A stretch of 24,447 bases of DNA, taken from positions 1 to 24,447 of the IMG/VR virus record IMGVR_UViG_3300010885_030499. One strand, written 5' to 3'. The stretch is from a virus. This document shows, in pieces, positions 8,560-22,410 of the stretch (its first letter is position 1; each line of letters starts with the position of its first letter). The notes under the pieces are model-generated. The model had not been told where the DNA came from and did no database searches. It worked only from the letters and a program-made list of their open reading frames with translations. Both the position numbers and the translations under genes were made by a program.

Positions 8560-8910
8560 ATGAAAAAAATTACAACATTTAAACTATTTGAAAGTTTATC
8601 AGAACCTTCCTACGAAGAAAGAGCAAAATTTAGGTTGGCAATTAGAGAAGATAGAGAAGATGATGCAATAGATATGATTAAAAAAAATCCCGAGTTTGCA
8701 CATTATAGAAGACAAATATTTGTGAAGACAGCAGCCGAGTTTGGAAAAGTAAAATTACTTAAATATATGCTTGATAATTGTGATGTTAATATTCCAGAAA
8801 TTAAGAATTGGATGAGCCCTACGATATTTCATGTTGATGGTGAATACAGCGGCGCAACTCTAACAGAGGAAGAATATGAAAAAGTTCTTGATTTATTAGC
8901 TAAATACTAA
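8560..8910 (+). CDS. Putative capsid-targeted ankyrin-like protein
   Basis: This 116-aa protein begins MKKITTFKLFE|S, the capsid-targeting-like signature. Residues 24-72 (FRLAIREDREDDAIDMIKKN ... KLLKYMLD) look like a pair of ankyrin-type helical repeats, and LTEEEYEKVLDLLA closes the protein. The same block, with the matching pieces DNPDI..CRR, LKYLLS and LTEKEIDEIISFIS, occurs at residues 95-168 of the zinc peptidase at 17279. The two therefore share a domain, although here it stands alone. Ankyrin repeats bind proteins, so it may be an adaptor or host-interaction module carried in the head; that is inference. Confidence 0.8.
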   Translation: MKKITTFKLFESLSEPSYEERAKFRLAIREDREDDAIDMIKKNPEFAHYRRQIFVKTAAEFGKVKLLKYMLDNCDVNIPEIKNWMSPTIFHVDGEYSGATLTEEEYEKVLDLLAKY

Positions 8911-9871: not shown

Positions 9872-12800
9872 ATGAAGTATTTAAAATACAGAGAAGATTT
9901 TCTTGTAAGAAAGTTTGAGGAGGTTAAGATTAATAACGAAATACACTTACCAATAAATGAGGAATATGCCTTTGAGAACGACATTACGTGGGGCGGATCC
10001 TTACTTGGTAGACTTATTAACTCAACACTAAGAAAGTCTAAACTCTATCTTAAGGTGACTAAGGTAAGTGGAATAGTTAATGAAGTTGAAGCTCGTTTAG
10101 CTGAACTACTAACACGTTCTATACCTGGTGCTAAGAATATAACTGCACTTGTTGCCTTATATGAGGTATATTGTGCTGCAAATGCGATAAATACACAAAG
10201 GGCATTATACTCAAATCTATCGGTTAATGAAAGAATTGACCAATTATTAGATGGCTTGATAGACAATGCTATTGACCTAACTAAGAAGTCCGAAATTGAG
10301 GGTAAAGATACAATAGTAAGTAGCTTAGAGAAGTTTAGAGATGATCTGAAAAAAGAGGAAGGTGATACAAATGAGGAAGATAATGATGAGGAAGAAGACA
10401 ACGAGTCAGATAAAGTATTCTATGACAACACAGTATCTTTAATACAATCAATAACCAGACTACATCTAGATATAAAGAATAATACTGTTAAGTTTGGGGG
10501 TACAGGTACCAATTTTGATGAAGTAAAATATAACAGACTTAAAGGAATGGCTAAGCCAAGCAATGATGCCGCATATTTAGGTATGCTCAATAATAGATTA
10601 GGTATGGCAAAAAGTGCAGTAGAAATCTATACTAAGAAGAATGATACTGAAAAGGTTAATTTTTATAAAAACGAGGAGGCTGAAATAGGTAAGTTAATTA
10701 AAGAGATTAAAGACAAAAAACAAACAACAACCGTACCTGCGGCAGAAGAAGAGCCAGTAGATAAAGAAGCTCATGAGAATGCAGTTAGGTTAAGTAAGAA
10801 AGGTACAATCGGACAGATAAACGGAGTTACCGCATCAGAAGCATTTAGTTACTATGATGAGTTTTATGTAATGCTTAACGAAGAGATAGATGCAAACCTA
10901 CAGGAAGATGAAGCTTCGAAAAGTGCAAAGATTGCTTGGAATAAAGTTATTAAAGCTTATAGTGCATCAGGCATCGCGACACACATCCAAGATTTGGAAT
11001 CTCTTTTAAATTCCAATGCTGAGAATAAAAAGACAAATATGAAAAATATTGTGGACTTGGGTAGAAAGATTGTTCTAAACTATGATTCATATAAGCCAGA
11101 TGGATTGGAGGCTCTTATAAAAGAGGCAATCGTAGTTGAAGACGTTGCTAAGTCAATATCTTCACTTAGCAAAGTACTATTATCATTTACTGATCAAGAA
11201 ACCAAGGGTGAGTCCACAAATAACCAGGACATATCATGGAAGCATCTTATATTATGGTCACTTGGTGATGATGGTAAAGGTGGTGGTGCAGGCGCACATA
11301 TCAAACAGTTTATCAAATCTTTTAACAAAATAAAAGAAGTATATCCTGATACCGTTAAAAATCAAGATACCAATAAGACAGAAGTTAAATCTGAGACACA
11401 AGAGGAAGTTAAAACCGAAAGATTGATATCAAGCTTCAATAAGTTCATGCTTATAAGAGAGCAGGATGAGGACATATCAGTAAATGATGAAGGGGAAAAT
11501 AAACCTGAGTCACCGGAACAAACAAAAGTGGAAAATAAACCAGATGCCCAAACAAAACAAGAAGAAGAAAATAAGCCAGAAGCTCAGGGACAAGAAACAG
11601 AGACTGAACAGCAGTCTGATAGTATTAAAACATCATGGTTCAAGTTCTTCAAGAAAGGTGATGAGTCTAAATGGAAGGTTGATAAGGCAGCAGCAGATGA
11701 GGCTAATAAGCAACTAGAGAATAGTAAAGGTGAGGATATCTCTACCGAGGCTTTAGATAAAGAAGATAAGGATACTAGGAAGAAAGACCCTATTATTCAA
11801 ATAATTAATCTATTTGGTAGAGCTTATGATTTATATGCTTCTGATTATATTCCATCGGGAAGACCTGGTGGTAGAGTTTCTCAAAAGACGTTGAGAGAAT
11901 ATGAATACATTGGTAAGGCAAGCCCTGGTACAATGGATAATCCTGGGTTTGGACCTTGGGCGGCTAAAGCAGTCTATGATAAATGGCAAACTGGTATAAC
12001 CAAGATACTCGAACAAGAGAGATTCAGAATGATATTGGCTAAGTATAAATTTGTCTCTCAAGCTGAGAAGGATACGGGTACCGAACAAGCAAACTTTGAT
12101 AAGAAAAATCAAGGGTCAGGTAGAACACTTATGACTTTCATCAACGATATGTTAGATAACAAAGAAGGAAGTTTTAAAAAGCATAGAAGTAAAATACTAA
12201 CTAGATACTTTGGAACAGAGGACATTGCAGAAGCTAAAGAGACTGGTGATGGTATACCAAATGGTGGTACAATTAATGCTGATGATAAAGGACCTACTGA
12301 CTCTCCGTTCTTCGATCAAACAGGTCGTACGAACAGTCTCATTGGACTGAAATCAATGGGTAAGAAAATGCTTAAGGTTACTGATAAAGATAATATTAAT
12401 ATTATGTATTTCTATCCATTCGGTGAGCAAAATGGAACAAAGGGTGGTAACTGTGTGATGTTTAAGTATCAATTCTGTCCTAAGGTTAATAAGAAACAAT
12501 CTATTGTATCCAACTATCTAAAAAATCAAGTTAGTAGTGATACATCACCAACCCCATATAAAATGGACCTAATCTCTGGCTCTGGTGCTAGTGATAATGC
12601 TAGACTACCATTCGCGGATAACTACCCAATTTATATTGGATATATTGATTTGGATACACACAATAATAGTTTTTCAATTTCAAATAATCTGAAGATTAAA
12701 TATGTTGAAATAAATGATAGTTTAAAGAATGGCAACTATGATATAAAGTCAAAGGAAATTAAAATTAATAATATTGAGATTCTTAAAGTTCCGGTAGATA

Positions 12801-12925
12801 AGGCTAATGGAAAACAGATTAAAGAAGATATTACATTTAAGCAAGACAAGATAGTCGAAAAGAGTAATGATATGAAAATCGATAATAGAAAGATGAATGA
12901 GATAATTGCTAAATTTAAAGCATAA
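9872..12925 (+). CDS. Large putative head-internal protein of unknown function, 1017 aa
   Basis: I do not recognise this protein family. It begins MKYLKYRE|D, the shared capsid-targeting-like signature. The N-terminal half is helical, with an acidic tract at about 168-185. A low-complexity P/E/K/Q linker at about 530-590 (repeated ENKPE/QT elements) joins it to a C-terminal half containing G/P-rich loops (YIPSGRPGGRVSQKTLREYE and following) and beta segments near the end. Just before the linker, residues 519-529 (ISSFNKFMLIRE) resemble a second copy of the N-terminal signal, ending in the I-x-E cleavage type. The protein may therefore be cut into two chains. Transcription starts at its own late motif and ends at its own strong terminator. 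It could be an internal core or scaffold protein or an injected protein. Confidence 0.88.
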   Translation: MKYLKYREDFLVRKFEEVKINNEIHLPINEEYAFENDITWGGSLLGRLINSTLRKSKLYLKVTKVSGIVNEVEARLAELLTRSIPGAKNITALVALYEVYCAANAINTQRALYSNLSVNERIDQLLDGLIDNAIDLTKKSEIEGKDTIVSSLEKFRDDLKKEEGDTNEEDNDEEEDNESDKVFYDNTVSLIQSITRLHLDIKNNTVKFGGTGTNFDEVKYNRLKGMAKPSNDAAYLGMLNNRLGMAKSAVEIYTKKNDTEKVNFYKNEEAEIGKLIKEIKDKKQTTTVPAAEEEPVDKEAHENAVRLSKKGTIGQINGVTASEAFSYYDEFYVMLNEEIDANLQEDEASKSAKIAWNKVIKAYSASGIATHIQDLESLLNSNAENKKTNMKNIVDLGRKIVLNYDSYKPDGLEALIKEAIVVEDVAKSISSLSKVLLSFTDQETKGESTNNQDISWKHLILWSLGDDGKGGGAGAHIKQFIKSFNKIKEVYPDTVKNQDTNKTEVKSETQEEVKTERLISSFNKFMLIREQDEDISVNDEGENKPESPEQTKVENKPDAQTKQEEENKPEAQGQETETEQQSDSIKTSWFKFFKKGDESKWKVDKAAADEANKQLENSKGEDISTEALDKEDKDTRKKDPIIQIINLFGRAYDLYASDYIPSGRPGGRVSQKTLREYEYIGKASPGTMDNPGFGPWAAKAVYDKWQTGITKILEQERFRMILAKYKFVSQAEKDTGTEQANFDKKNQGSGRTLMTFINDMLDNKEGSFKKHRSKILTRYFGTEDIAEAKETGDGIPNGGTINADDKGPTDSPFFDQTGRTNSLIGLKSMGKKMLKVTDKDNINIMYFYPFGEQNGTKGGNCVMFKYQFCPKVNKKQSIVSNYLKNQVSSDTSPTPYKMDLISGSGASDNARLPFADNYPIYIGYIDLDTHNNSFSISNNLKIKYVEINDSLKNGNYDIKSKEIKINNIEILKVPVDKANGKQIKEDITFKQDKIVEKSNDMKIDNRKMNEIIAKFKA

Positions 12926-12974: not shown

Positions 12975-13538
12975 ATGATTAAGAAGTATAAGGAATTTAG
13001 AGAAGCTTTCAACATTTATCAAACTGATGAACCAGAGATTGCTGCTGATAAGAATCAATCTAATGATGCTGAGAAAGATATTAAGGAGTTTTTAACCAAA
13101 AAGGTTACCATAGATAATATCTATAATACATATAAAGATGAGAAGGATTTAATATCTAAACTATTTGCACAAAAGTTTATTGAGGCTAATACGTCGGATA
13201 AGAAAAGAATTAAGTTTAACAATCCACTAATAGCTCTATACGCAATGGCAGCGGATAAAAAAAGAGAGCTAAAGTCGCTACAAGATGACTTACAGACTAA
13301 GACAGATACATTAAGCAATGTGAAATCTAGTATGAGTGATAATCCTGATAATAAGGATTCATTGACTAATGATATAAACTATAATCAGGATAAGATAACA
13401 GAACTAAATGATAAGATAAAAAAACTAAACACAGAGATTATGACACTTAGCAGAAATGCTGATCAAAAACTCAAACAAATGAAAGCAGATATACTCAACA
13501 ATAAAAAACGATTGGATTATTTCATAAAGAATAAATAA
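12975..13538 (+). CDS. Putative capsid-targeted coiled-coil protein
   Basis: This 187-aa protein starts at the ATG at 12975. An upstream in-frame ATG at 12906 is rejected because it would lie inside the preceding gene and terminator, and because the promoter motif ends at 12972. From 12975 the protein begins MIKKYKEFRE|A, a very close match to the T4 targeting sequence. The middle is helical, and residues about 95-180 form a long coiled coil (ELKSLQDDLQTKTDTLSNV, KITELNDKIKKLNTEIMTL), K-rich toward the end. Composition and position directly before the sheath gene would suit a prohead core or internal protein. There is no enzymatic motif. Confidence 0.85.
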   Translation: MIKKYKEFREAFNIYQTDEPEIAADKNQSNDAEKDIKEFLTKKVTIDNIYNTYKDEKDLISKLFAQKFIEANTSDKKRIKFNNPLIALYAMAADKKRELKSLQDDLQTKTDTLSNVKSSMSDNPDNKDSLTNDINYNQDKITELNDKIKKLNTEIMTLSRNADQKLKQMKADILNNKKRLDYFIKNK

Positions 13539-13597: not shown

Positions 13598-16500
13598 ATG
13601 GCAGCAATTCAAATTGGTAAATACAAAAGACCTGGCATCTTCATCGAAGAGTATGATTTATCACAAATAGCTAATCCAACAGTTATCGAGGGAATAACTA
13701 ACATGGTTATTGGTTTCTCTAAGAAGGGACCGGTAAACACACCAATTCGTTTAACCAATGTGAGTGACCTGGAAGCTATCTTTGGTACAATAGATAGAAG
13801 TTTAGAAAGAAAAGGTTCTTACTTCCACAGAACAGTAACTAAAATGCTGGAGTCTAGTCCTGTATATGCACTTAACCTATTGAAGACCGATGATACATTA
13901 GATAAAATACAATTTAAATCTTTATCTGGTTCCTCATACATATTCAATGCGGCAGAATCTTTAGATTCTTATAGAAAATTCTTTAATACAACTGGATTTT
14001 GGAAGAGAGATACTCAAGCATTTCTTGATCAGGTTAGTCTAGATCCGATTGCTGAGCCATTAGAGCCAATAAGTGGATTAAATACCTTAATCAACCTTAC
14101 TAACGTTTCTGATAGAGCAATAACTGTATTTACATTTAAGTCTTCTATGACTGGATTTGATGTACAATTACAACAATGGTACGGCTCAGCCGATAAGGTT
14201 CCTACTTACTTATATCCAACAGACTTCGCATCTGACTACTTAGTTGATGTTGTTGTTGTTGCTGGTGACTGGACTAACTATAGCACTTTATCAACCGATT
14301 CAAAATGGTCAAAATACTTTGATGCAACTGGTTTACTAAAGGGACAGGTTAGTAGCTTTATACACGATAGAAATATTAATTTATTAGGATATTATCAAGG
14401 TTTATCTTTAATCCCTTACTTCAAAGATTTATCTGGTAGAAACATATTCATTGAAACATTAATCAATAATGATACAGATAAAACAGGATTATTCTGTGCA
14501 TTTAACGTTGATCGTTATGAAACTGATTATCCAAACGGTATGCTAGATTTAATTGGTAATACTCTAGTTGGAACAACACAATCAACAATTGATTTCTTAT
14601 CATATAATGATACTATAATCGATAGTAATACATACGACTTCACTGATTTAGATAGACCAGGTAATACATGGGCAATTATCCCAAGTGGATATGATAGCAT
14701 ATTTAGAGGTGCTGGTGCAACTGGTGTTGCAGAAGGTTACAGATCTGCTTTATACTCAGAAGGATATGTTTATGGTGTATATACTGACTATTCATATGCT
14801 ACCGCATCCTATACGGTTACTGGTACTGTATATGTTACTGATACTCCATATGTAATCATAGGTGGTAAAAAGCTTACTTTAGTTAATAACACCGGCGCAA
14901 CATTATCTACTACATCATTCACAAGTTCTTACACACCAGTCTCTGGAACAAATAGTTTCTATTCAACACTTAAAGTTGATAATACTGGTAAGGTTAGTAT
15001 GATAGGAACAGGCACTGCATCACCTGCGGTTAATGTTACAGATGTTGTATTTGGTTATACCGTAACAACTATCAACCCATCTACATCTTCTTACACATTT
15101 GTTACAAATGATGTAAGTGTTAATGATGGTGGATTTAATGAGTTGGTTTCTGGTGTTGATTTCAATTATCAATATTTATCAAACCCAGTTACAAATGTAA
15201 ATATAGATACAGCTCTTAAACTACAACTTGTATTTGAGTTAGCATCAACTGATAAAGCATCTAGTTTGGCTGCAAGTGGATCTTATGAGAAGTTAAGAAG
15301 AATGGTATATTATAATAGTCTTACAAGCTTCTTCACATCTGAATCAGTTTGGTCAACCGAGAATAAAACTATCGTGACAACTTCTAATGTGAAATTAACA
15401 AAAGTTACAATAACTGGTAAGCTTGGAGTTGAGATTACAAATCTACAAGATACTGATGGTGTATTCTTATATTATAAAACAGATGATGAATTCATTATTG
15501 GATCATCTATATCATTCGGTATTGCTTATAGTGACTATTGGAATACCTCTGGGGCAGCTAATGCTACTGTCGGTGTTTTTGGACAATACTCAAAATTTTA
15601 TATGGATTATGTAAACGGTATAGTACAAACAGATGATTATATAACTGGACCTTCTGGTAATAAATACTATATAAATATAACTGAATTTGGAACAAACACC
15701 GGAGTTTATATATTTGCATTCTTTGATCTACCAACATATGAAGGTGGTGTGGTTTTAGATATTGAGACATATGATCCAGTTGATTACGCAGCTATCTTCA
15801 ATGAGTTTACTGTTATATCAAGAAAATCTAACTTTAGTCAATCTCTTGATGTTGAGTATCCAGATAGCTGGACACCAGTATCAACTAAGATTTTAGTTAA
15901 TGCTGCGAGATATACTGAGGTTAAAGTTGGTGATTATCTAGAAGCATCTTACGACCCATCAACATTAGGCGTAAATACAATAGGTGGACTTACATATTCA
16001 GAAGTTCCTAAACAACTAACAAGAATCATTGCTAAGAAAGCATATGCTTCGGTTTACTCTGAGTTAACCTGTGATGCACCAATTGCATTAACCCCTTATA
16101 ACTATGGTGGTATAACTGCTCAAACAACTAGATATGCTAGTCTTGATAATTATGTATCAACATATAAGGGTACAGCATTAACTGGATTTAAGATGAGAAA
16201 TGAATCAATGCCTAATGGTACTGAAACTAGACAAAACGATATTCTTAACTTAGTTAAATCTGGAACACCATTATTCAAGGCACTAACAAACAAAGAAGCA
16301 ATTGATTTTAGATATTTAATCGATTCATTTGGTTTAGGTTTAATCGAATTCTCTAAGCAACAATTAATGGACATTTGTGGTGCAAGATTAGACTGCTTTG
16401 GTTTCTTAAACATGCCTTCTATGAAGAACTTTAAACATAATACTGATCCACAATTTGTTGATAACGATGGTGTATTTGATACAGCTTATGTAGCAGCAGG

Positions 16501-17200
16501 TGCGAACCAAGATTTAAATCCTTCTACCATATACTCATTCGGTACTGGTGCTGGTACAACTTGTGTTGGTTACTTCGGACCTTACTTAACAGTAAGTGAT
16601 GGTAGACCTTTAGACCTACCACCAGCAATGTTCGTAGCTACAACCTATATGAGAAAGCATAATACAAACTTCACATCTATTGTTCCTTGGACAATCGCCG
16701 CGGGTGTTACTAACGGTAAAGTTACTGGGTTCAATAAAGTTGAAATGGATTTCACACCAACTGATATCGAAAATCTAAATGGTGCTCAAATGAATCCAAT
16801 TGTGTACAAACGTAATAGAGGATTTGTAATTGAAACAGAGAATACCGCTCAAACAGAGTATAAATCAGCATTATCTTACATTCACGTTAGAGAAGTGTTA
16901 ATCGAACTTGAGAGAGAACTTTCTAGAATGCTATTGGACTTCCAGTGGAAATTTAATACTCCAGAAGTAAGATCTGAGATTAAACTAAGAGCAGATGTTA
17001 TCTGTGAGCAATATGTAAACAAAAATGGTTTATATAACTACTTCAACAAGTGTGACTCAGAAAACAACACCTCTGACTTAATTGATAGACAAATCGGTGT
17101 CCTTGATACTTATGTTGAACCAATTAAGGGTATGGGTATCATTGTAAATAATGTTACAATCCTTAGAACAGGAGCTATTCAAAGTGGTGGATTTGCATAA
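13598..17200 (+). CDS. Contractile tail sheath protein (T4 gp18-like) with a large insertion
   Basis: This 1200-aa protein has recognisable sheath ends. The N-terminus (KRPGIFIEEYDLSQIANPTV, then a GFSKKGPVNTPIRLTNVSDL stretch with FGTIDRSLERKGSYFHRTV) matches phage sheath subunits. The C-terminal 200 residues (FVIETENTAQTEYKSALSYI, LERELSRMLLDFQWKFN, then VEPIKGMGIIVNNVTILRTG) form the conserved contractile core. T4 gp18 is 659 aa; the extra length lies mainly between about residues 375 and 845. That region is rich in T, S, Y, G and V and looks like several beta-sandwich or Ig-like surface domains (TASYTVTGTVYVTDTPYVII). The protein polymerises around the tail tube and contracts at infection. 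It has its own promoter and terminator. Confidence 0.95.
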   Translation: MAAIQIGKYKRPGIFIEEYDLSQIANPTVIEGITNMVIGFSKKGPVNTPIRLTNVSDLEAIFGTIDRSLERKGSYFHRTVTKMLESSPVYALNLLKTDDTLDKIQFKSLSGSSYIFNAAESLDSYRKFFNTTGFWKRDTQAFLDQVSLDPIAEPLEPISGLNTLINLTNVSDRAITVFTFKSSMTGFDVQLQQWYGSADKVPTYLYPTDFASDYLVDVVVVAGDWTNYSTLSTDSKWSKYFDATGLLKGQVSSFIHDRNINLLGYYQGLSLIPYFKDLSGRNIFIETLINNDTDKTGLFCAFNVDRYETDYPNGMLDLIGNTLVGTTQSTIDFLSYNDTIIDSNTYDFTDLDRPGNTWAIIPSGYDSIFRGAGATGVAEGYRSALYSEGYVYGVYTDYSYATASYTVTGTVYVTDTPYVIIGGKKLTLVNNTGATLSTTSFTSSYTPVSGTNSFYSTLKVDNTGKVSMIGTGTASPAVNVTDVVFGYTVTTINPSTSSYTFVTNDVSVNDGGFNELVSGVDFNYQYLSNPVTNVNIDTALKLQLVFELASTDKASSLAASGSYEKLRRMVYYNSLTSFFTSESVWSTENKTIVTTSNVKLTKVTITGKLGVEITNLQDTDGVFLYYKTDDEFIIGSSISFGIAYSDYWNTSGAANATVGVFGQYSKFYMDYVNGIVQTDDYITGPSGNKYYINITEFGTNTGVYIFAFFDLPTYEGGVVLDIETYDPVDYAAIFNEFTVISRKSNFSQSLDVEYPDSWTPVSTKILVNAARYTEVKVGDYLEASYDPSTLGVNTIGGLTYSEVPKQLTRIIAKKAYASVYSELTCDAPIALTPYNYGGITAQTTRYASLDNYVSTYKGTALTGFKMRNESMPNGTETRQNDILNLVKSGTPLFKALTNKEAIDFRYLIDSFGLGLIEFSKQQLMDICGARLDCFGFLNMPSMKNFKHNTDPQFVDNDGVFDTAYVAAGANQDLNPSTIYSFGTGAGTTCVGYFGPYLTVSDGRPLDLPPAMFVATTYMRKHNTNFTSIVPWTIAAGVTNGKVTGFNKVEMDFTPTDIENLNGAQMNPIVYKRNRGFVIETENTAQTEYKSALSYIHVREVLIELERELSRMLLDFQWKFNTPEVRSEIKLRADVICEQYVNKNGLYNYFNKCDSENNTSDLIDRQIGVLDTYVEPIKGMGIIVNNVTILRTGAIQSGGFA

Positions 17201-17214
17201 TCTCTAGAATAAAT

Positions 17215-17247
17215 AAAAAAACCAGATAGAAATATCTGGTTTTTTTA
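17215..17247 (+). terminator. Hairpin terminator after the sheath gene
   Basis: The stem ACCAGATA (17221-17228) and TATCTGGT (17233-17240) is closed by a GAAA tetraloop, extended by A6/T7 on the flanks. Confidence 0.92.
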
Positions 17248-17260
17248 TTTAATATATACT
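17248..17260 (+). promoter_or_regulatory. Late-promoter-like motif for the zinc-peptidase gene
   Basis: TTTAATATATACT directly follows the T-run of the sheath terminator. The ATG is 18 nt downstream behind an A-rich leader. Confidence 0.55.
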
Positions 17261-17278: not shown

Positions 17279-19135
17279 ATGAAACACGTAAACAATTGGG
17301 AAATTTTTAACGAAGATGTGGATAATAAATCTCCAAAAAGTCACGTTGGCTTTTTAGAGGAAGTAATAAATACACTGTCCAAAATTCACTCAAATATCAT
17401 TCAATTTGGATCAGCATCCAAAGATCAACAACTATTTATAGAGGACCTTAACAAACTAGTATCCAAGTATGGTACAAAAAATTTGGGAAAGGTTAATGAG
17501 TCACTTAGTGATACAGAGCATCATAAATACTATGACTGGGATAAAAAAAATCAAGATTTAGCAATTGAGTTTAGAAGATCAGTAAAGGATAATAATATTA
17601 CTAAGACCCGTCAAATAGTTAAAGATAACCCAGACATTATCTACTGTAGAAGAAATCATGCGTTTAAACAAGCTGTTGAGAACGAGTCTAGTGACATGTT
17701 AAAGTATCTATTATCAGTTGATAAAGAACTTGGTGGTAATTTAACCGAAAAAGAAATTGATGAAATCATATCTTTCATTTCAGTTCGAAAAGACAATTCA
17801 AGAACTGAGTTATCTAACATAATAGATAATTATAAGAAATTAATGATAAACGAAGGCAAATCATCAAGAGTTAAAGCTAGATCAACTGATCCTTTCAAGC
17901 AGACTTTTCTTAACTTAACCGAATATACTATTCCATACGGAAATGAAACTGATTTGGAAAAGTATCTACCAAGTGGGTATAAAAAAGACTCAATTGGTAA
18001 CTACTATATCGAAGTAGGAAAATCAGAAACATTATTCACTACACACTTAGATACATATTGTGAAAAGAAAGAGAAGGTTAAGCACGTAATATCCGGTGAT
18101 ATTATCAAAACCGATGGTACAACTATATTAGGGGGTGATAATAAATTGGGTATGACTATACTTCTTTACATGATTGAAAAAGGAGTACCTGGTACTTATT
18201 TTTTCTTCTTAGGGGAAGAACCAATATTAAGTGGTGGTTTGTGGGGATCGCAGAATACACTTAAAAGTAATCCTGATTTCTTCAAGAAGTTTAAAAGAGC
18301 AGTTGCCTTTGATAGAAAAGAAAAGGGTTCTGTTGTAAGAAGACAAAAGGGAAGATACTGTTGCTCAGAAGAATTTGCTGAGGCATTAAGTAATGAACTA
18401 ACAAACTTAGGAGTAGATTCCGCACCAGATCCTAATGCTTATTATACCGATACCGCGACATTCTTAGATATAATTCCTGAATGTACTAATATAAGTGCTG
18501 GTGGGTGGAAAGAACACTTTAAAGAAGAGTGGGTTGATTTAGGTTACACAAAACAAGTTGCAGAGGCGGCTTGTAAAGTCGATTGGGAAAATCTTCCAAC
18601 TGAAAGAAAGGTTAACTACTTTCAACCAAAGTATAAAGTTGAACCAAGACACAGATTTGTTAATAGAGAAGTTATTAAGGGTGTTAAAGAAGTATTGAAT
18701 AGATATGATCTACTACACACCAATAACTTAGAATTTGATACTTATAATACAGATACATTAGTATTTAATACCTGGTTCGAAGAAAAGAACATTAAAGTAA
18801 CAATACTAGATGATATTTTACTTCAAATAGAAGGTTATGATGACGTTAAATTTGGATTGAATGAACTTAAAAAGCTAAATCTATATTTAGGCAATATATT
18901 TGGAGTGGATATAAATCCGAATGATTATAAAATGTTATCTTATAAAGATGGTAGAGTAAGTATCTTAGGTAGTGTATTTAATGATATAGATGAATATCTT
19001 GAGCATTTTGATAAAATAAACTCCGATGACACATCATTTGTAATTAAGAAGGGTGGTGATCAGTATAAAGAATACTATGGTAGTGTGGTCCCAAAAGAAC
19101 TTGTTCTAAAATGGTTTCATGATAATATAGCATAA
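17279..19135 (+). CDS. Putative capsid-targeted M20/M28/M42-type zinc peptidase with an ankyrin-like domain
   Basis: This 618-aa protein has three parts. The N-terminus MKHVNNWEIFNE|D is the capsid-targeting-like signature. Residues about 95-168 repeat the ankyrin-like block of the gene at 8560. From about 205 on there is a dinuclear zinc peptidase core: THLDT with H256 and D258, GGDNKLG with D287, GEEP with E313/E314, AFDRK with D345 and KEHF with H413. This is the H-x-D, D, E-E, D, H ligand order of M20/M28/M42 enzymes. The last 150 residues are not recognised. It follows the sheath gene as a single-gene late unit. Family-level enzyme type is likely; substrate and virion location are inference. 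It differs from T4 gp21, which is a serine protease. Confidence 0.88.
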   Translation: MKHVNNWEIFNEDVDNKSPKSHVGFLEEVINTLSKIHSNIIQFGSASKDQQLFIEDLNKLVSKYGTKNLGKVNESLSDTEHHKYYDWDKKNQDLAIEFRRSVKDNNITKTRQIVKDNPDIIYCRRNHAFKQAVENESSDMLKYLLSVDKELGGNLTEKEIDEIISFISVRKDNSRTELSNIIDNYKKLMINEGKSSRVKARSTDPFKQTFLNLTEYTIPYGNETDLEKYLPSGYKKDSIGNYYIEVGKSETLFTTHLDTYCEKKEKVKHVISGDIIKTDGTTILGGDNKLGMTILLYMIEKGVPGTYFFFLGEEPILSGGLWGSQNTLKSNPDFFKKFKRAVAFDRKEKGSVVRRQKGRYCCSEEFAEALSNELTNLGVDSAPDPNAYYTDTATFLDIIPECTNISAGGWKEHFKEEWVDLGYTKQVAEAACKVDWENLPTERKVNYFQPKYKVEPRHRFVNREVIKGVKEVLNRYDLLHTNNLEFDTYNTDTLVFNTWFEEKNIKVTILDDILLQIEGYDDVKFGLNELKKLNLYLGNIFGVDINPNDYKMLSYKDGRVSILGSVFNDIDEYLEHFDKINSDDTSFVIKKGGDQYKEYYGSVVPKELVLKWFHDNIA

Positions 19136-19138
19136 CTT

Positions 19139-19167
19139 AAAGTCGCATAGAAATATGCGACTTTTTT
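19139..19167 (+). terminator. Hairpin terminator after the peptidase gene
   Basis: The stem AAGTCGCATA (19140-19149) and TATGCGACTT (19154-19163) is closed by a GAAA tetraloop and runs into T6. Confidence 0.92.
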
Positions 19168-19176
19168 ATTATGATA

Positions 19177-19189
19177 TTTTATATATACT
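19177..19189 (+). promoter_or_regulatory. Late-promoter-like motif for the HExxH gene
   Basis: TTTTATATATACT lies 10 nt after the previous terminator and 3 nt before the ATG at 19193. Confidence 0.5.
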
Positions 19190-19192
19190 ACA

Positions 19193-20359
19193 ATGAAGTA
19201 TATGAAAATATTTGAGGCGTATAATGATTTCTATCAAGAGATAAGTAATGGTGAATATAATAGGCTACGTGCAACTGACTTTGATGATAGGTATATAGAT
19301 GATATAAGTAAAGCACTTGGTGCTAATTTTATAGTTGAGTCATCAGGTCAGTCAAACACATTTTATTCACATTGTATAATAAGAAGCAACAAAAGTAAGA
19401 TAAAAAAAGTAAGCATACAAGTGTATCAACTATATGATGAATACTTTAAAGTAAAATCAAATTCAGTTATTATCGGTGGTGTCATGATAGATAGATGGTT
19501 CAAATGTGATCAAATTGATGGTCTAATAGAATGTCTTACTAACCTAACAACCTATAACCGAAAGAAATCTAAAAGCATAACTGAGAAAAGAGGTATACTA
19601 ACAGAGTTAGAATATATAGCCGATGATATAATTGAGAAAATGATTGGTAAGTCGAGCATACGATATAAATTTAACTTTAAAGATAGTAATATAGATGTAA
19701 AAATAAAGATAGACCCTACAAATAAAGATATAGGTACTATGAGAAATGGCATTATATCAAATTCGATAATATTATCCAGTTTAGACAAAAGTGTTTTAAT
19801 ACATGAGTTGAAGCACCTATTATATATTAATCAAAATCCAAACAGTAGTGGGTTCAAAAACTCAATAAGCAGATCGTTTAATTGGATAGAAAGCAAATAC
19901 GGAAAAGAATTTAATGAAGGTCATAAGGAAATAATAACAGCACTCTTCTACCTAATCGAACCTGATGAGTTTGAAGCTCAATACAATGGGTTATATCATA
20001 TGATAAAGAGTCAAGTAGAAAAGGACCCAAGTAACAAAAAGGAGATAGTAGATCGACTAATTAAACAGGATGATCTATATAAATTATATACATCGTTTAT
20101 CAAGTGGGACTTTGATATTAGAAATTGGTTTAAAGATGAAAAGTATGTAAAGCCTTTTTTTAATGACTTATACCACACTATTAATATTTTGAAGAAATCT
20201 ACCATCAAAGCAACAATTTTACTAAGCATAGATTATTATTTTAGTTTCAAGAGAAAGAACATAAATACAGAAAAGGCAGTGAAGAATTTTAACCGATTAG
20301 TAAATACACAAGTTCACAAGAACTATAGAAAGTTAATGAGACTATATTCTCTATTTTAA
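19193..20359 (+). CDS. Putative capsid-targeted protein: CDQ-GL domain fused to an HExxH zincin-like domain
   Basis: This 388-aa protein begins MKYMKIFE|A, the capsid-targeting-like signature, followed by FYQEISNGEY (13-22). The first 120 residues end in YDEYFKV (81-87) and WFKCDQIDGLIECL (102-115). They are paralogous to the proteins at 2447 and 21180. The rest is a separate domain with H204-E-L-K-H208, a zinc metalloprotease HExxH motif, followed by EPDEFEAQ (256-263), which could supply the third, glutamate ligand as in gluzincin-like peptidases. The C-terminus is basic and helical. It is a family member that gained a protease-like domain. Activity is predicted from motifs only. Confidence 0.85.
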   Translation: MKYMKIFEAYNDFYQEISNGEYNRLRATDFDDRYIDDISKALGANFIVESSGQSNTFYSHCIIRSNKSKIKKVSIQVYQLYDEYFKVKSNSVIIGGVMIDRWFKCDQIDGLIECLTNLTTYNRKKSKSITEKRGILTELEYIADDIIEKMIGKSSIRYKFNFKDSNIDVKIKIDPTNKDIGTMRNGIISNSIILSSLDKSVLIHELKHLLYINQNPNSSGFKNSISRSFNWIESKYGKEFNEGHKEIITALFYLIEPDEFEAQYNGLYHMIKSQVEKDPSNKKEIVDRLIKQDDLYKLYTSFIKWDFDIRNWFKDEKYVKPFFNDLYHTINILKKSTIKATILLSIDYYFSFKRKNINTEKAVKNFNRLVNTQVHKNYRKLMRLYSLF

Positions 20360-20501: not shown

Positions 20502-21116
20502 ATGCCATTACCGCACTTCACACAATTATTAATGACAGGTAGTCCCGGAGGCCCAGGTACCAAGCCACAAGAACCAGTATATTTAAACCTATTTGAGGTA
20601 ACTTTTATCTTACCTACAATTTTACAGGCACAAGGTAGAGACCCAATGTTATTATTAGAACAAGCAACTAACGTTACTTTAGATCTAACTAAGGACATTG
20701 AGGTTAAGACACAAAACTTCAAATACTCAAGCAGAGCATTCGTAACTATGCCAAGTTCAACACACGTTGAATTTGATATTAAGTTCAATGTGAATGTTAA
20801 TGAGCATGGATCTATGGAAACATGGAATACTCTTAAAGCATGGTACGACTTAGTATGGAACTCACAAAATGGTTCACTACATTATAAGAGTGATATCATC
20901 GGAACTATCATTGTTAACCAACATGACAAGAAGGGGGTTATTCTAAGAAGAGTAACATTCCAAAACGTTCAAATGAAAGGTGTTGATTCAGCAGCTTTAG
21001 AATGGAGTTCAAGTGAAATATGGGGTGCCGCTGCTAAATTTGTAGCAGATTACTGGATTGATGAATACATCGATGGAAACTTTACGATTCAACCGCCATT
21101 GGTTCAAGGTTATTAA
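20502..21116 (+). CDS. Tail tube protein (T4 gp19-like)
   Basis: This 204-aa protein is recognised as a T4-type tail tube subunit: LFEVTFILPT near the N-terminus, a central beta-rich region (FVTMPSSTHVEFDIKFNVNV), WNTLKAWYDLVWNSQNG, the strand IIGTIIVNQHDKKG and the ending W-SSSEIWGAAAKFVADYW. T4 gp19 is 163 aa, so this copy is about 40 aa longer, mostly at the ends. Hexameric rings of this protein stack to form the inner tube through which DNA passes. It is a single-gene unit with two candidate late promoters and a strong bidirectional terminator, as expected for an abundant structural protein. The N-terminal segment GSPGGPGTKPQEP is glycine/proline-rich. Confidence 0.93.
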   Translation: MPLPHFTQLLMTGSPGGPGTKPQEPVYLNLFEVTFILPTILQAQGRDPMLLLEQATNVTLDLTKDIEVKTQNFKYSSRAFVTMPSSTHVEFDIKFNVNVNEHGSMETWNTLKAWYDLVWNSQNGSLHYKSDIIGTIIVNQHDKKGVILRRVTFQNVQMKGVDSAALEWSSSEIWGAAAKFVADYWIDEYIDGNFTIQPPLVQGY

Positions 21117-21179: not shown

Positions 21180-21587
21180 TTAATATTCATCACTCTCATT
21201 AACACCAACTATGTAATCAATTGTATATTTAATAAACTTTAATAATCCCACAAACTGATCACACATATAGAATTTTACAGCAATATATTTTTCTGGTCGA
21301 CATGTCCATCTTACGAGATACCATTCATCCTTTAACTTAACTACTTGCATAGATGATGCACCCTTACCAACACCAGCTTTACCAAACTGTATTTCAACTA
21401 CTTCAGATATAGTCTGTGGTAATATGACAACTCCCTTAATTGCACGTATTTCTTTCAACTCATCTAAGGTAAAGTCAATACTATCGTCGCACCTATCAAT
21501 GTAATCATCACCAGATACTTCATTAAAGTACTGATTATAGTCTTCAAATATCTTGATATAATTCAAAACAGATTGTTTATTTTTCAT
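21180..21587 (-). CDS. Putative capsid-targeted late protein, CD(Q/S)-GL family
   Basis: This 135-aa protein starts MKNKQSVLNYIKIFE|D, an extended version of the shared signature, followed by YFNEVSGDDY (20-29). The domain that follows ends with DEWYLVRW (87-94) and FYMCDQFVGLLKF (106-118), the hallmark positions of the family also found at 2447 and 19193. No catalytic residues are obvious. It is transcribed divergently from the GIY-YIG endonuclease and has a near-perfect late motif. It is probably a head-internal or injected protein; the function of the domain is unknown. Confidence 0.85.
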   Translation of the reverse strand: MKNKQSVLNYIKIFEDYNQYFNEVSGDDYIDRCDDSIDFTLDELKEIRAIKGVVILPQTISEVVEIQFGKAGVGKGASSMQVVKLKDEWYLVRWTCRPEKYIAVKFYMCDQFVGLLKFIKYTIDYIVGVNESDEY

Positions 21588-21625: not shown

Positions 21626-21669
21626 GGTAAGCAAGATATATTAATATATAATTAAATATCTTGCTTACC
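21626..21669. repeat. Perfect 14-bp inverted repeat at the start of the GIY-YIG gene
   Basis: GGTAAGCAAGATAT (21626-21639) and ATATCTTGCTTACC (21656-21669) are exact reverse complements around a 16-nt AT spacer. The right arm ends immediately before the ATG at 21670. In RNA this hairpin would bury the ribosome landing region. In DNA it could be an operator for a dimeric protein. Confidence 0.9.
21640..21652 (+). promoter_or_regulatory. Late-promoter-like motif inside the inverted repeat
   Basis: ATTAATATATAAT lies in the spacer of the inverted repeat. A transcript starting here would lack the left arm and could not form the hairpin. Confidence 0.5.
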
Positions 21670-22410
21670 ATGAATGATTACTATGTTTATATATTCCTGA
21701 ATTCACTAAAACCCGGACACTTCAAATATGCGGATGATTTAACTTTCACACATCAACCATTTTATGTCGGAAGAGGAATCAATAATAGAATTGAATGTAG
21801 CGAGAAATATGACAAGAATAATAAGATAAAAACATCAATAATAGATTATATACATAAGAATGATATGAATGTGATATCTCTAAAAATAAAAGAGTGTATG
21901 ACTTTAGAAGAATCTTACGATTATGAGATATATACGATAAATAAAATAGGTAGAATTATACATAAGAGTGGACCTCTATCTAATATAGAGGATGGTGGAA
22001 ACACATTTCAAAATAGAATAAGACCTGTTTTACAATATGATATAAAAGGTAATTTTATTAAGGAATATAAATCTATTGGTGAGGCGGTCGCCAGCACAAA
22101 TATTAAAAATATTAGTTATTGTTGCTCTGGTGTTAGAAATTTAGCAGGTAAATATATATGGCGCTATAAACAAAGCAGTGATTTCCCAACTATTATACCA
22201 GTGGACTTTCTAGATAGAATGGTGCACTATGGTAATTATGAAACTCCGGTGTTACAATTTGATATAAACAAAAACTTTATATGTAGATTTGAGTCAATTA
22301 AGGAGGCATCTGATAGCACCGGGTGCTCGAGTCCAAGAATAGTCGATGTATGTAAAGGTAACAGAAAGCATACCAAAAATTTTATTTGGATTTATGCAGA
22401 TAAAAAATAA
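21670..22410 (+). CDS. GIY-YIG homing endonuclease with NUMOD1-like repeats
   Basis: This 246-aa protein starts at ATG 21670. A TTG at 21661 is in frame but lies inside the right arm of the inverted repeat. The GIY-YIG nuclease domain occupies the first 95 residues or so: YYVYIFLNS (4-12), FYVGRG with NR (31-40) and a later Glu-rich helix (EESYDYEIYTINKIG). Two NUMOD1-like DNA-binding repeats follow, each with VLQ(Y/F)DI..NFI.....SI.EA and ending with (Y/F)IW.Y (about 115-160 and 195-246). It sits 6 nt upstream of the gp47 gene, a typical location for a free-standing mobile endonuclease next to a conserved phage gene. The promoter and hairpin arrangement suggests delayed expression. Confidence 0.92.
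   Translation: MNDYYVYIFLNSLKPGHFKYADDLTFTHQPFYVGRGINNRIECSEKYDKNNKIKTSIIDYIHKNDMNVISLKIKECMTLEESYDYEIYTINKIGRIIHKSGPLSNIEDGGNTFQNRIRPVLQYDIKGNFIKEYKSIGEAVASTNIKNISYCCSGVRNLAGKYIWRYKQSSDFPTIIPVDFLDRMVHYGNYETPVLQFDINKNFICRFESIKEASDSTGCSSPRIVDVCKGNRKHTKNFIWIYADKK

Follow-up and report, generated by a model that had tools for sequence, protein, structure and literature searches.

The tail gene block of the phage fragment analysed here raises the question of why two predicted metallopeptidases, placed back to back and sharing a short N-terminus, should lie between structural genes, and where in the infection they would act. The window, meaning the whole 24.4 kb stretch of DNA, is a fragment of a relative of 635-735 kb megaphages. 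It is syntenic with the megaphages LR756502 (642 kb) and LR745206 (635 kb) across the terminase, sheath, tube, SbcD-like and several small genes. Members of the LR756502/LR745206 group were described from a lake and from a sub-surface sample, and the marine Mar_Mega_1 belongs to a sister group (PMC9723777).

The locus and its neighbourhood

The locus is bounded on the left by the tail sheath gene (13598..17200, + strand; phrog_34521, E 5e-88; Pfam Phage_sheath_1, 1e-6), which has 51-52% identity to the sheaths of LR756502 and LR745206. On the right is the tail tube gene (20502..21116, +; phrog_45, E 4e-8), with 77% identity to the LR756502 tube. Between them, on the same strand, lie gene 1 (17279-19135), of 618 residues with a PepT-like peptidase domain, and gene 2 (19193-20359), of 388 residues and a zincin-like family. 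The coordinates and reading frames of the initial annotation were exact. Its placement of the pair between sheath and tube is correct for the window but is not general, the pair being particular to the window phage: no such peptidases lie between sheath and tube in five other megaphages inspected. The closest relative found by tail tube (L149, 87% identity) has a gene 2 homolog between sheath and tube, and gene 1 is absent.

Other genes of the window are also of interest. A ClpS adaptor (2133-2414; Pfam E 4e-17) adjoins the terminase, as it does in LR756502 and LR745206 (63-67% identity); from this conserved position, the window phage may also steer host Clp proteolysis. A HAD-family protein (738-1247; HAD_SAK_1, E 5e-9) adjoins ClpS, in an order kept in the same relatives. 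A probable HNH nuclease, recognised by eye and with no Pfam match (1295-1942), has homologs elsewhere in the relatives' genomes, and a GIY-YIG/NUMOD homing-type endonuclease (21661-22410) adjoins the tube gene.

A shared N-terminal signal

The motif at the start of both peptidases was derived from seven window N-termini as seeds, iterated on 1037 ORFs (the window and 400 kb from each of two megaphages). It converged on MK[HY][LI]Kx[YF][EKN]xF, and the score threshold of 6.2 is the 99th percentile of shuffled N-termini. Residues 1-12 of gene 1 (MKHVNNWEIFNE; 17279..17314, +) score 15.4 and residues 1-12 of gene 2 (MKYMKIFEAYND; 19193..19228, +) score 9.9, which bears out the shared N-terminus first reported for the pair and marks both as capsid-targeting-like signals. 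The motif stands at the first Met of 193 of the 1037 megaphage ORFs (about 19%), against 13 of 2972 internal Met. In 80 non-training contigs, some of them perhaps closely related to the training genomes, the counts are 168/896 ORF starts and 25/3806 internal Met. The automatic carrier call accepts any Met in the first 40 residues and yields false positives (MVRRSTQ... is an example), so M1-anchored counts are quoted where possible.

The signal occurs on otherwise unrelated proteins. Its carriers, about a fifth of the genes, include methyltransferases, NUDIX, SET and M15 proteins, the HExxH family of gene 2 and the PepT-like peptidase. A Pfam survey of 140 carriers turned up no family of major capsid, replication or translation proteins, whereas such families did occur among 140 non-carriers. 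The distant myophages PAU (34 CDS) and PTm1 (35 CDS) are essentially without the signal. A nucleotide signal was considered and rejected, since the choice of synonymous codons at these positions is about as variable as elsewhere in the genome, so selection acts on the protein. Following the motif there is a mild excess of ES, NE and EA, with no fixed or conserved cleavage site found there, and relatives encode an S77-like protease. No description of the signal in megaphages was found in a literature search that reached few subscription journals or preprints.

Likeness to the capsid targeting sequence of T4

The initial annotation spoke of a packaging-like signal, and the closest known counterpart is the capsid targeting sequence (CTS) of phage T4, which brings both internal proteins and foreign fusion proteins into the head and is removed by gp21 (PMC5694885, PMC3012670). 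The CTS of T4 (IPI, IPII, IPIII; Alt) and the megaphage signal are both short and N-terminal, have a basic-aromatic core Kx[YF]xxF and are borne by otherwise unrelated proteins. The megaphage signal differs in an extra leading [KR][HY][LI] and in its abundance, on about 19% of ORFs against a handful of T4 proteins.

A signal core derived from the megaphages ranks T4 ipI, ipIII and ipII first to third among 259 T4 ORFs, over a core range chosen after the T4 N-termini had been seen. The first 11 residues of ipII and ipIII are identical, so the test amounts to about two independent successes. The ranking is kept, or nearly so, when the core begins at any of motif positions 2-5. A likeness extending over the full motif was rejected, because the T4 proteins drop out of the ranking once positions 0-1, which T4 lacks, are included. 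The T4 internal-protein ranking, conservation at the protein rather than the codon level, and a promoter-like element common with structural genes together give the signal the look of a T4 CTS.

The promoter-like element and its company

This element, TWATATATA (T[AT]ATATATA), precedes the sheath, tube, gene 1 and gene 2 in the window, as well as the genes starting at 9872 and 12975. It takes the form TTATATATA 34 nt upstream of the sheath gene and TAATATATA 51 nt upstream of the tube gene. Ahead of gene 1 (17216..17260, +), a hairpin and T run, read by eye and not listed by the terminator scan, are followed by TAATATATA; the block AGAAATATCTGGTTTTTTTATTTAATATATA found here recurs ahead of the L149 homolog of gene 2. 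Ahead of gene 2 (19139..19192, +), an intrinsic-terminator-like hairpin (19139-19164) that the scan does list is followed by TTATATATA, 14 nt upstream of the gene.

The element is upstream of 104/208 carriers and 158/763 non-carriers (p 8e-16); with the intergenic gap restricted to 20-150 nt, the figures are 80/97 and 131/348. Among relatives it precedes 37/46 sheath and 34/78 tube genes and only 4 of 66 SbcD-like genes. From this distribution we infer that TWATATATA is a late promoter. The two window genes upstream of the sheath (9872-12925 and 12975-13538) have signal-like N-termini, the second just below threshold, along with the element; their pre-sheath order is conserved in LR756502 and LR745206, and both may encode abundant components of the virion or core.

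A motif carried by roughly one gene in five would mean a great many proteins as head cargo, and it might instead sort proteins elsewhere, to a phage compartment or membrane, or affect their stability. Such a destination outside the capsid is unlikely in view of the specific ranking of the T4 internal proteins and the co-occurrence of the motif with the promoter-like element of structural genes. Within the sample, no major capsid, polymerase or tRNA-synthetase gene has the motif, and it is hydrophilic, unlike a membrane signal.

The peptidase domain of gene 1

Residues 189-450 of gene 1 (17843..18628, +) are confidently predicted, from ligands and modelled fold, to form a PepT-like M20/M42 dimetal peptidase domain. 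The ligand set first proposed for it (H256, D258, D287, E313, E314, D345, H413) is complete, and loss in relatives, named at the outset as grounds for rejecting the site, was not seen: the seven residues are invariant in seven megaphage homologs and 55 relatives. Their order is the HxD...D...EE...D/E...H of the MH clan (M20/M28/M42), which comprises five metal ligands and a catalytic Asp and Glu. An AF2 model built with 55 aligned relatives has a pLDDT of about 97 over the domain, and its structural matches include the tripeptidase 3rza (VIA Z 25.7; 2.3 A over 227 residues) and 3gb0 (VIA Z 25.4). The C-terminal region, residues 451-618 (18629..19135, +), is modelled with a pLDDT of about 50-80 and is kept in relatives of 72-77% identity.

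At the profile level, residues 208-446 match phrog_4191 'peptidase' (E 4e-55), the same domain being known from Klebsiella and Pectobacterium podophages and from megaphages. The match to TIGR01883 (PepT-like, NCBIfam) is weak (E 3e-6) and, at 26.6 bits against a cut-off of 274, makes gene 1 a relative by fold rather than a member of PepT proper. The fold (Z 24-26) and the dimetal pattern HxD...D...EE...D...H are shared with Peptidase T/TIGR01883, M20 and M42 aminopeptidases. Unlike these, gene 1 has only about 68 residues from D345 to H413 and hence no large lid or dimerisation insert.

The structural relatives of gene 1 (PepT, TET/M42, DapE and carnosinase) have short peptides or small amides as substrates. 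The earlier suggestion that the enzyme disarms host proteins does not suit such a relationship; this is a family of exopeptidases, and broad cleavage of host proteins by gene 1 is therefore unlikely. By this comparison, peptide clean-up or peptide use would be more likely than the cutting of folded host proteins.

The N-terminal fusion and the loci of gene 1 relatives

Between signal and peptidase, residues 13-188 of gene 1 (17315..17842, +) form a helical, partly ankyrin-like stretch (AF2 helices, pLDDT about 50-80). It is weakly similar to the window gene 8560-8910 (E 9e-4) and absent from all relatives found. Relatives of 72-83% identity (L014-L023) begin at the peptidase and have no counterpart of residues 1-189, the homology starting about at 'MINEG', near their own 'NINEG' start. 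Judged by these alignments, the first ~190 residues are a lineage-specific fusion; known members of PHROG 4191 start at the peptidase domain, whereas gene 1 has the extra signal and helical stretch.

Only 3 of 103 gene 1 homolog ORFs exceed the signal threshold, and these come from two lineages. In the second (L033/L034) the signal is joined directly to the peptidase (MKYYHKYENFFKES), and one further peptidase (L058) has a partial signal. Most homologs are without it, so being cargo is no requirement for the enzyme. Phages, podophages included, commonly encode standalone homologs, and a megaphage peptidase has already been listed as an auxiliary metabolic gene (PMC9723777). Gene 1 could accordingly be an ordinary auxiliary metabolic peptidase of the infected cell with a neutral N-terminal fusion, but this is quite improbable given the signal and late-type promoter element of the window gene and the direct joining of signal to peptidase in the second lineage.

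The peptidases of L014-L023 are located just downstream of S77-like protease/scaffold and Gp23 capsid genes, in tandem with a paralog bearing another N-terminal domain. Of 79 relatives, 20 show this order, several of these 20 being near-copies; because the iterated profile for the capsid protein drifted, only loci with both protease and capsid matches were counted. Other relatives adjoin sheath or tube (L058, L070, L072, L025-L027). Although relatives of gene 1 adjoin the S77-like gene, neither window gene resembles the T4 prohead protease (gp21/Pfam S77), as noted from the start: both are without a Pfam or PHROG match to S77 and differ from it in chemistry.

Since the closest relatives of gene 1 sit in a head operon, a role in virion maturation has to be weighed. 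The peptidases would then act in the producing cell or prohead, the signal serving only to bring them into the core and delivery to the next host being incidental. Gene 1 would clear short peptides left by S77-like digestion of scaffold and targeting peptides, while gene 2 would make a specific cut. The head-operon order in the 20 relatives favours such a role, as does the position of others next to sheath or tube, and small peptides are fitting substrates for PepT-type exopeptidases. In T4, short fragments stay behind in the head after gp21 has acted (PMC5694885), and maturation roles for virion-linked peptidases have been proposed by jumbo-phage authors (PMC7824862). Against it, most gene 1 homologs are without the signal and so would not enter the core by that route, and some lie far from structural genes (LR745206, LR756504, LR756501). 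The rest of the signal-bearing set consists of unrelated proteins with a patchy distribution. On balance, a role confined to maturation is considered rather unlikely.

Three side observations concern the relatives. In these megaphages the S77-like prohead protease and the scaffold are apparently fused in one protein of 730 aa (L015, 1187-3379). An NFACT RNA-binding domain protein with a signal-like N-terminus lies between capsid gene and peptidase in L016 (3534-3965). Peptidase homologs of 54-57% identity are present in Rufibacter and Pontibacter contigs (L093, L094) and point to Bacteroidota hosts or prophage-like remains.

Gene 2 and its HExxH family

Gene 2 is also composite. Residues 13-124 (19229..19564, +) are a small domain fused in the window phage only. 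The domain is a free signal-bearing gene in L149 (9088-9486; 33% identity, E 2e-9) and has a signal-bearing paralog in the window (21180..21587, - strand; E 5e-6). Residues 125-388 (19565..20359, +) represent the zincin-like family, whose other members are ~285 residues long; the internal KSITEKRG of gene 2 aligns with their N-terminal FINEKLG.

A tblastn search of the phage collection with gene 2 itself returned no match. Homologs were reached through a scan for HExxH, which returned one in LR745206 (27% identical; E 4e-7, slightly flattered by the choice of pair), and then through tail-tube neighbours, where independent homologs were found, the best in L149 (48% identity). Most members exceed the signal threshold at their start, and one (L234, MKRISDFNTFITE) scores 5.8, just under 6.2. 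The HELKH (204-208) and downstream EPDEFEAQ of the initial annotation are both present, with E259-F260-E261 inside the latter, and H204, E205, H208, E259 and E261 are invariant in six homologs. HELKH and [DN]EFE recur in two further loci of the last scan and are kept in every distinct member found.

The family matches no profile in Pfam, PHROGs, NCBIfam or PDB sequences, and the single-sequence AF2 model (pLDDT 35.5) was not used for a fold search. HELKH and EFE could on that account belong to an unrelated helical fold with no peptidase activity. This is doubtful, as the two motifs stand ~50 residues apart in every distinct member at 25-49% identity and fit a gluzincin-type ligand set. Conservation of that zincin-type set across the family supports the prediction that gene 2 is a peptidase, within what appears to be a previously undescribed conserved HExxH family. 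The SprT-like, ArdC-like and group 1 zincins of jumbo phages are likewise HExxH metallopeptidases, with host or virion proteins as proposed targets (PMC7824862); the gene 2 family differs in having no known profile and in bearing the N-terminal signal. Gene 2 would be a better candidate than gene 1 for a targeted protease.

An enrichment of HExxH-plus-E proteins among carriers was seen in LR756502/LR745206 (6/216 against 1/794 non-carriers, p 5e-4). The tail-tube contigs did not repeat it (5/264 against 15/632), and no conclusion is based on it; the non-carrier matches there have a HEYGH...IEYDGEH pattern that by eye is nuclease-like rather than zincin.

Proposed role as head cargo

The explanation that we consider probable is that genes 1 and 2 are late genes for cargo loaded into the prohead by a signal of the T4 CTS type and delivered to the host with the DNA. 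The gene 1 peptidase would have been taken from a family encoded beside the major capsid gene in relatives and, in the window lineage, fused in frame with a helical protein that bore the signal. Gene 2 would have arisen when a signal-bearing member of the HExxH family was joined to a second signal-bearing domain. The short N-terminal signal would load both peptidases into the prohead, the S77-like protease would remove it, and the head-loaded enzymes would be ejected into the host along with the DNA. Within the head or a new host, gene 1 may trim short peptides, whether left by prohead proteolysis or derived from the host or from peptidoglycan, and gene 2 may cut one or a few specific proteins.

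In a wider sense, there is an even chance that megaphages of this clade load their heads with ~100-200 different proteins through a T4-like CTS for injection at infection, in which case much of the huge genome would encode delivered cargo. The gene 2 family offers an undescribed conserved HExxH family to test. A readable signal, if true, would bear on what giant phage genomes are for and turn several hundred unknown genes into a testable list of head cargo. The internal-protein system of T4 would then extend to the largest known phages, with two peptidases on the cargo list.
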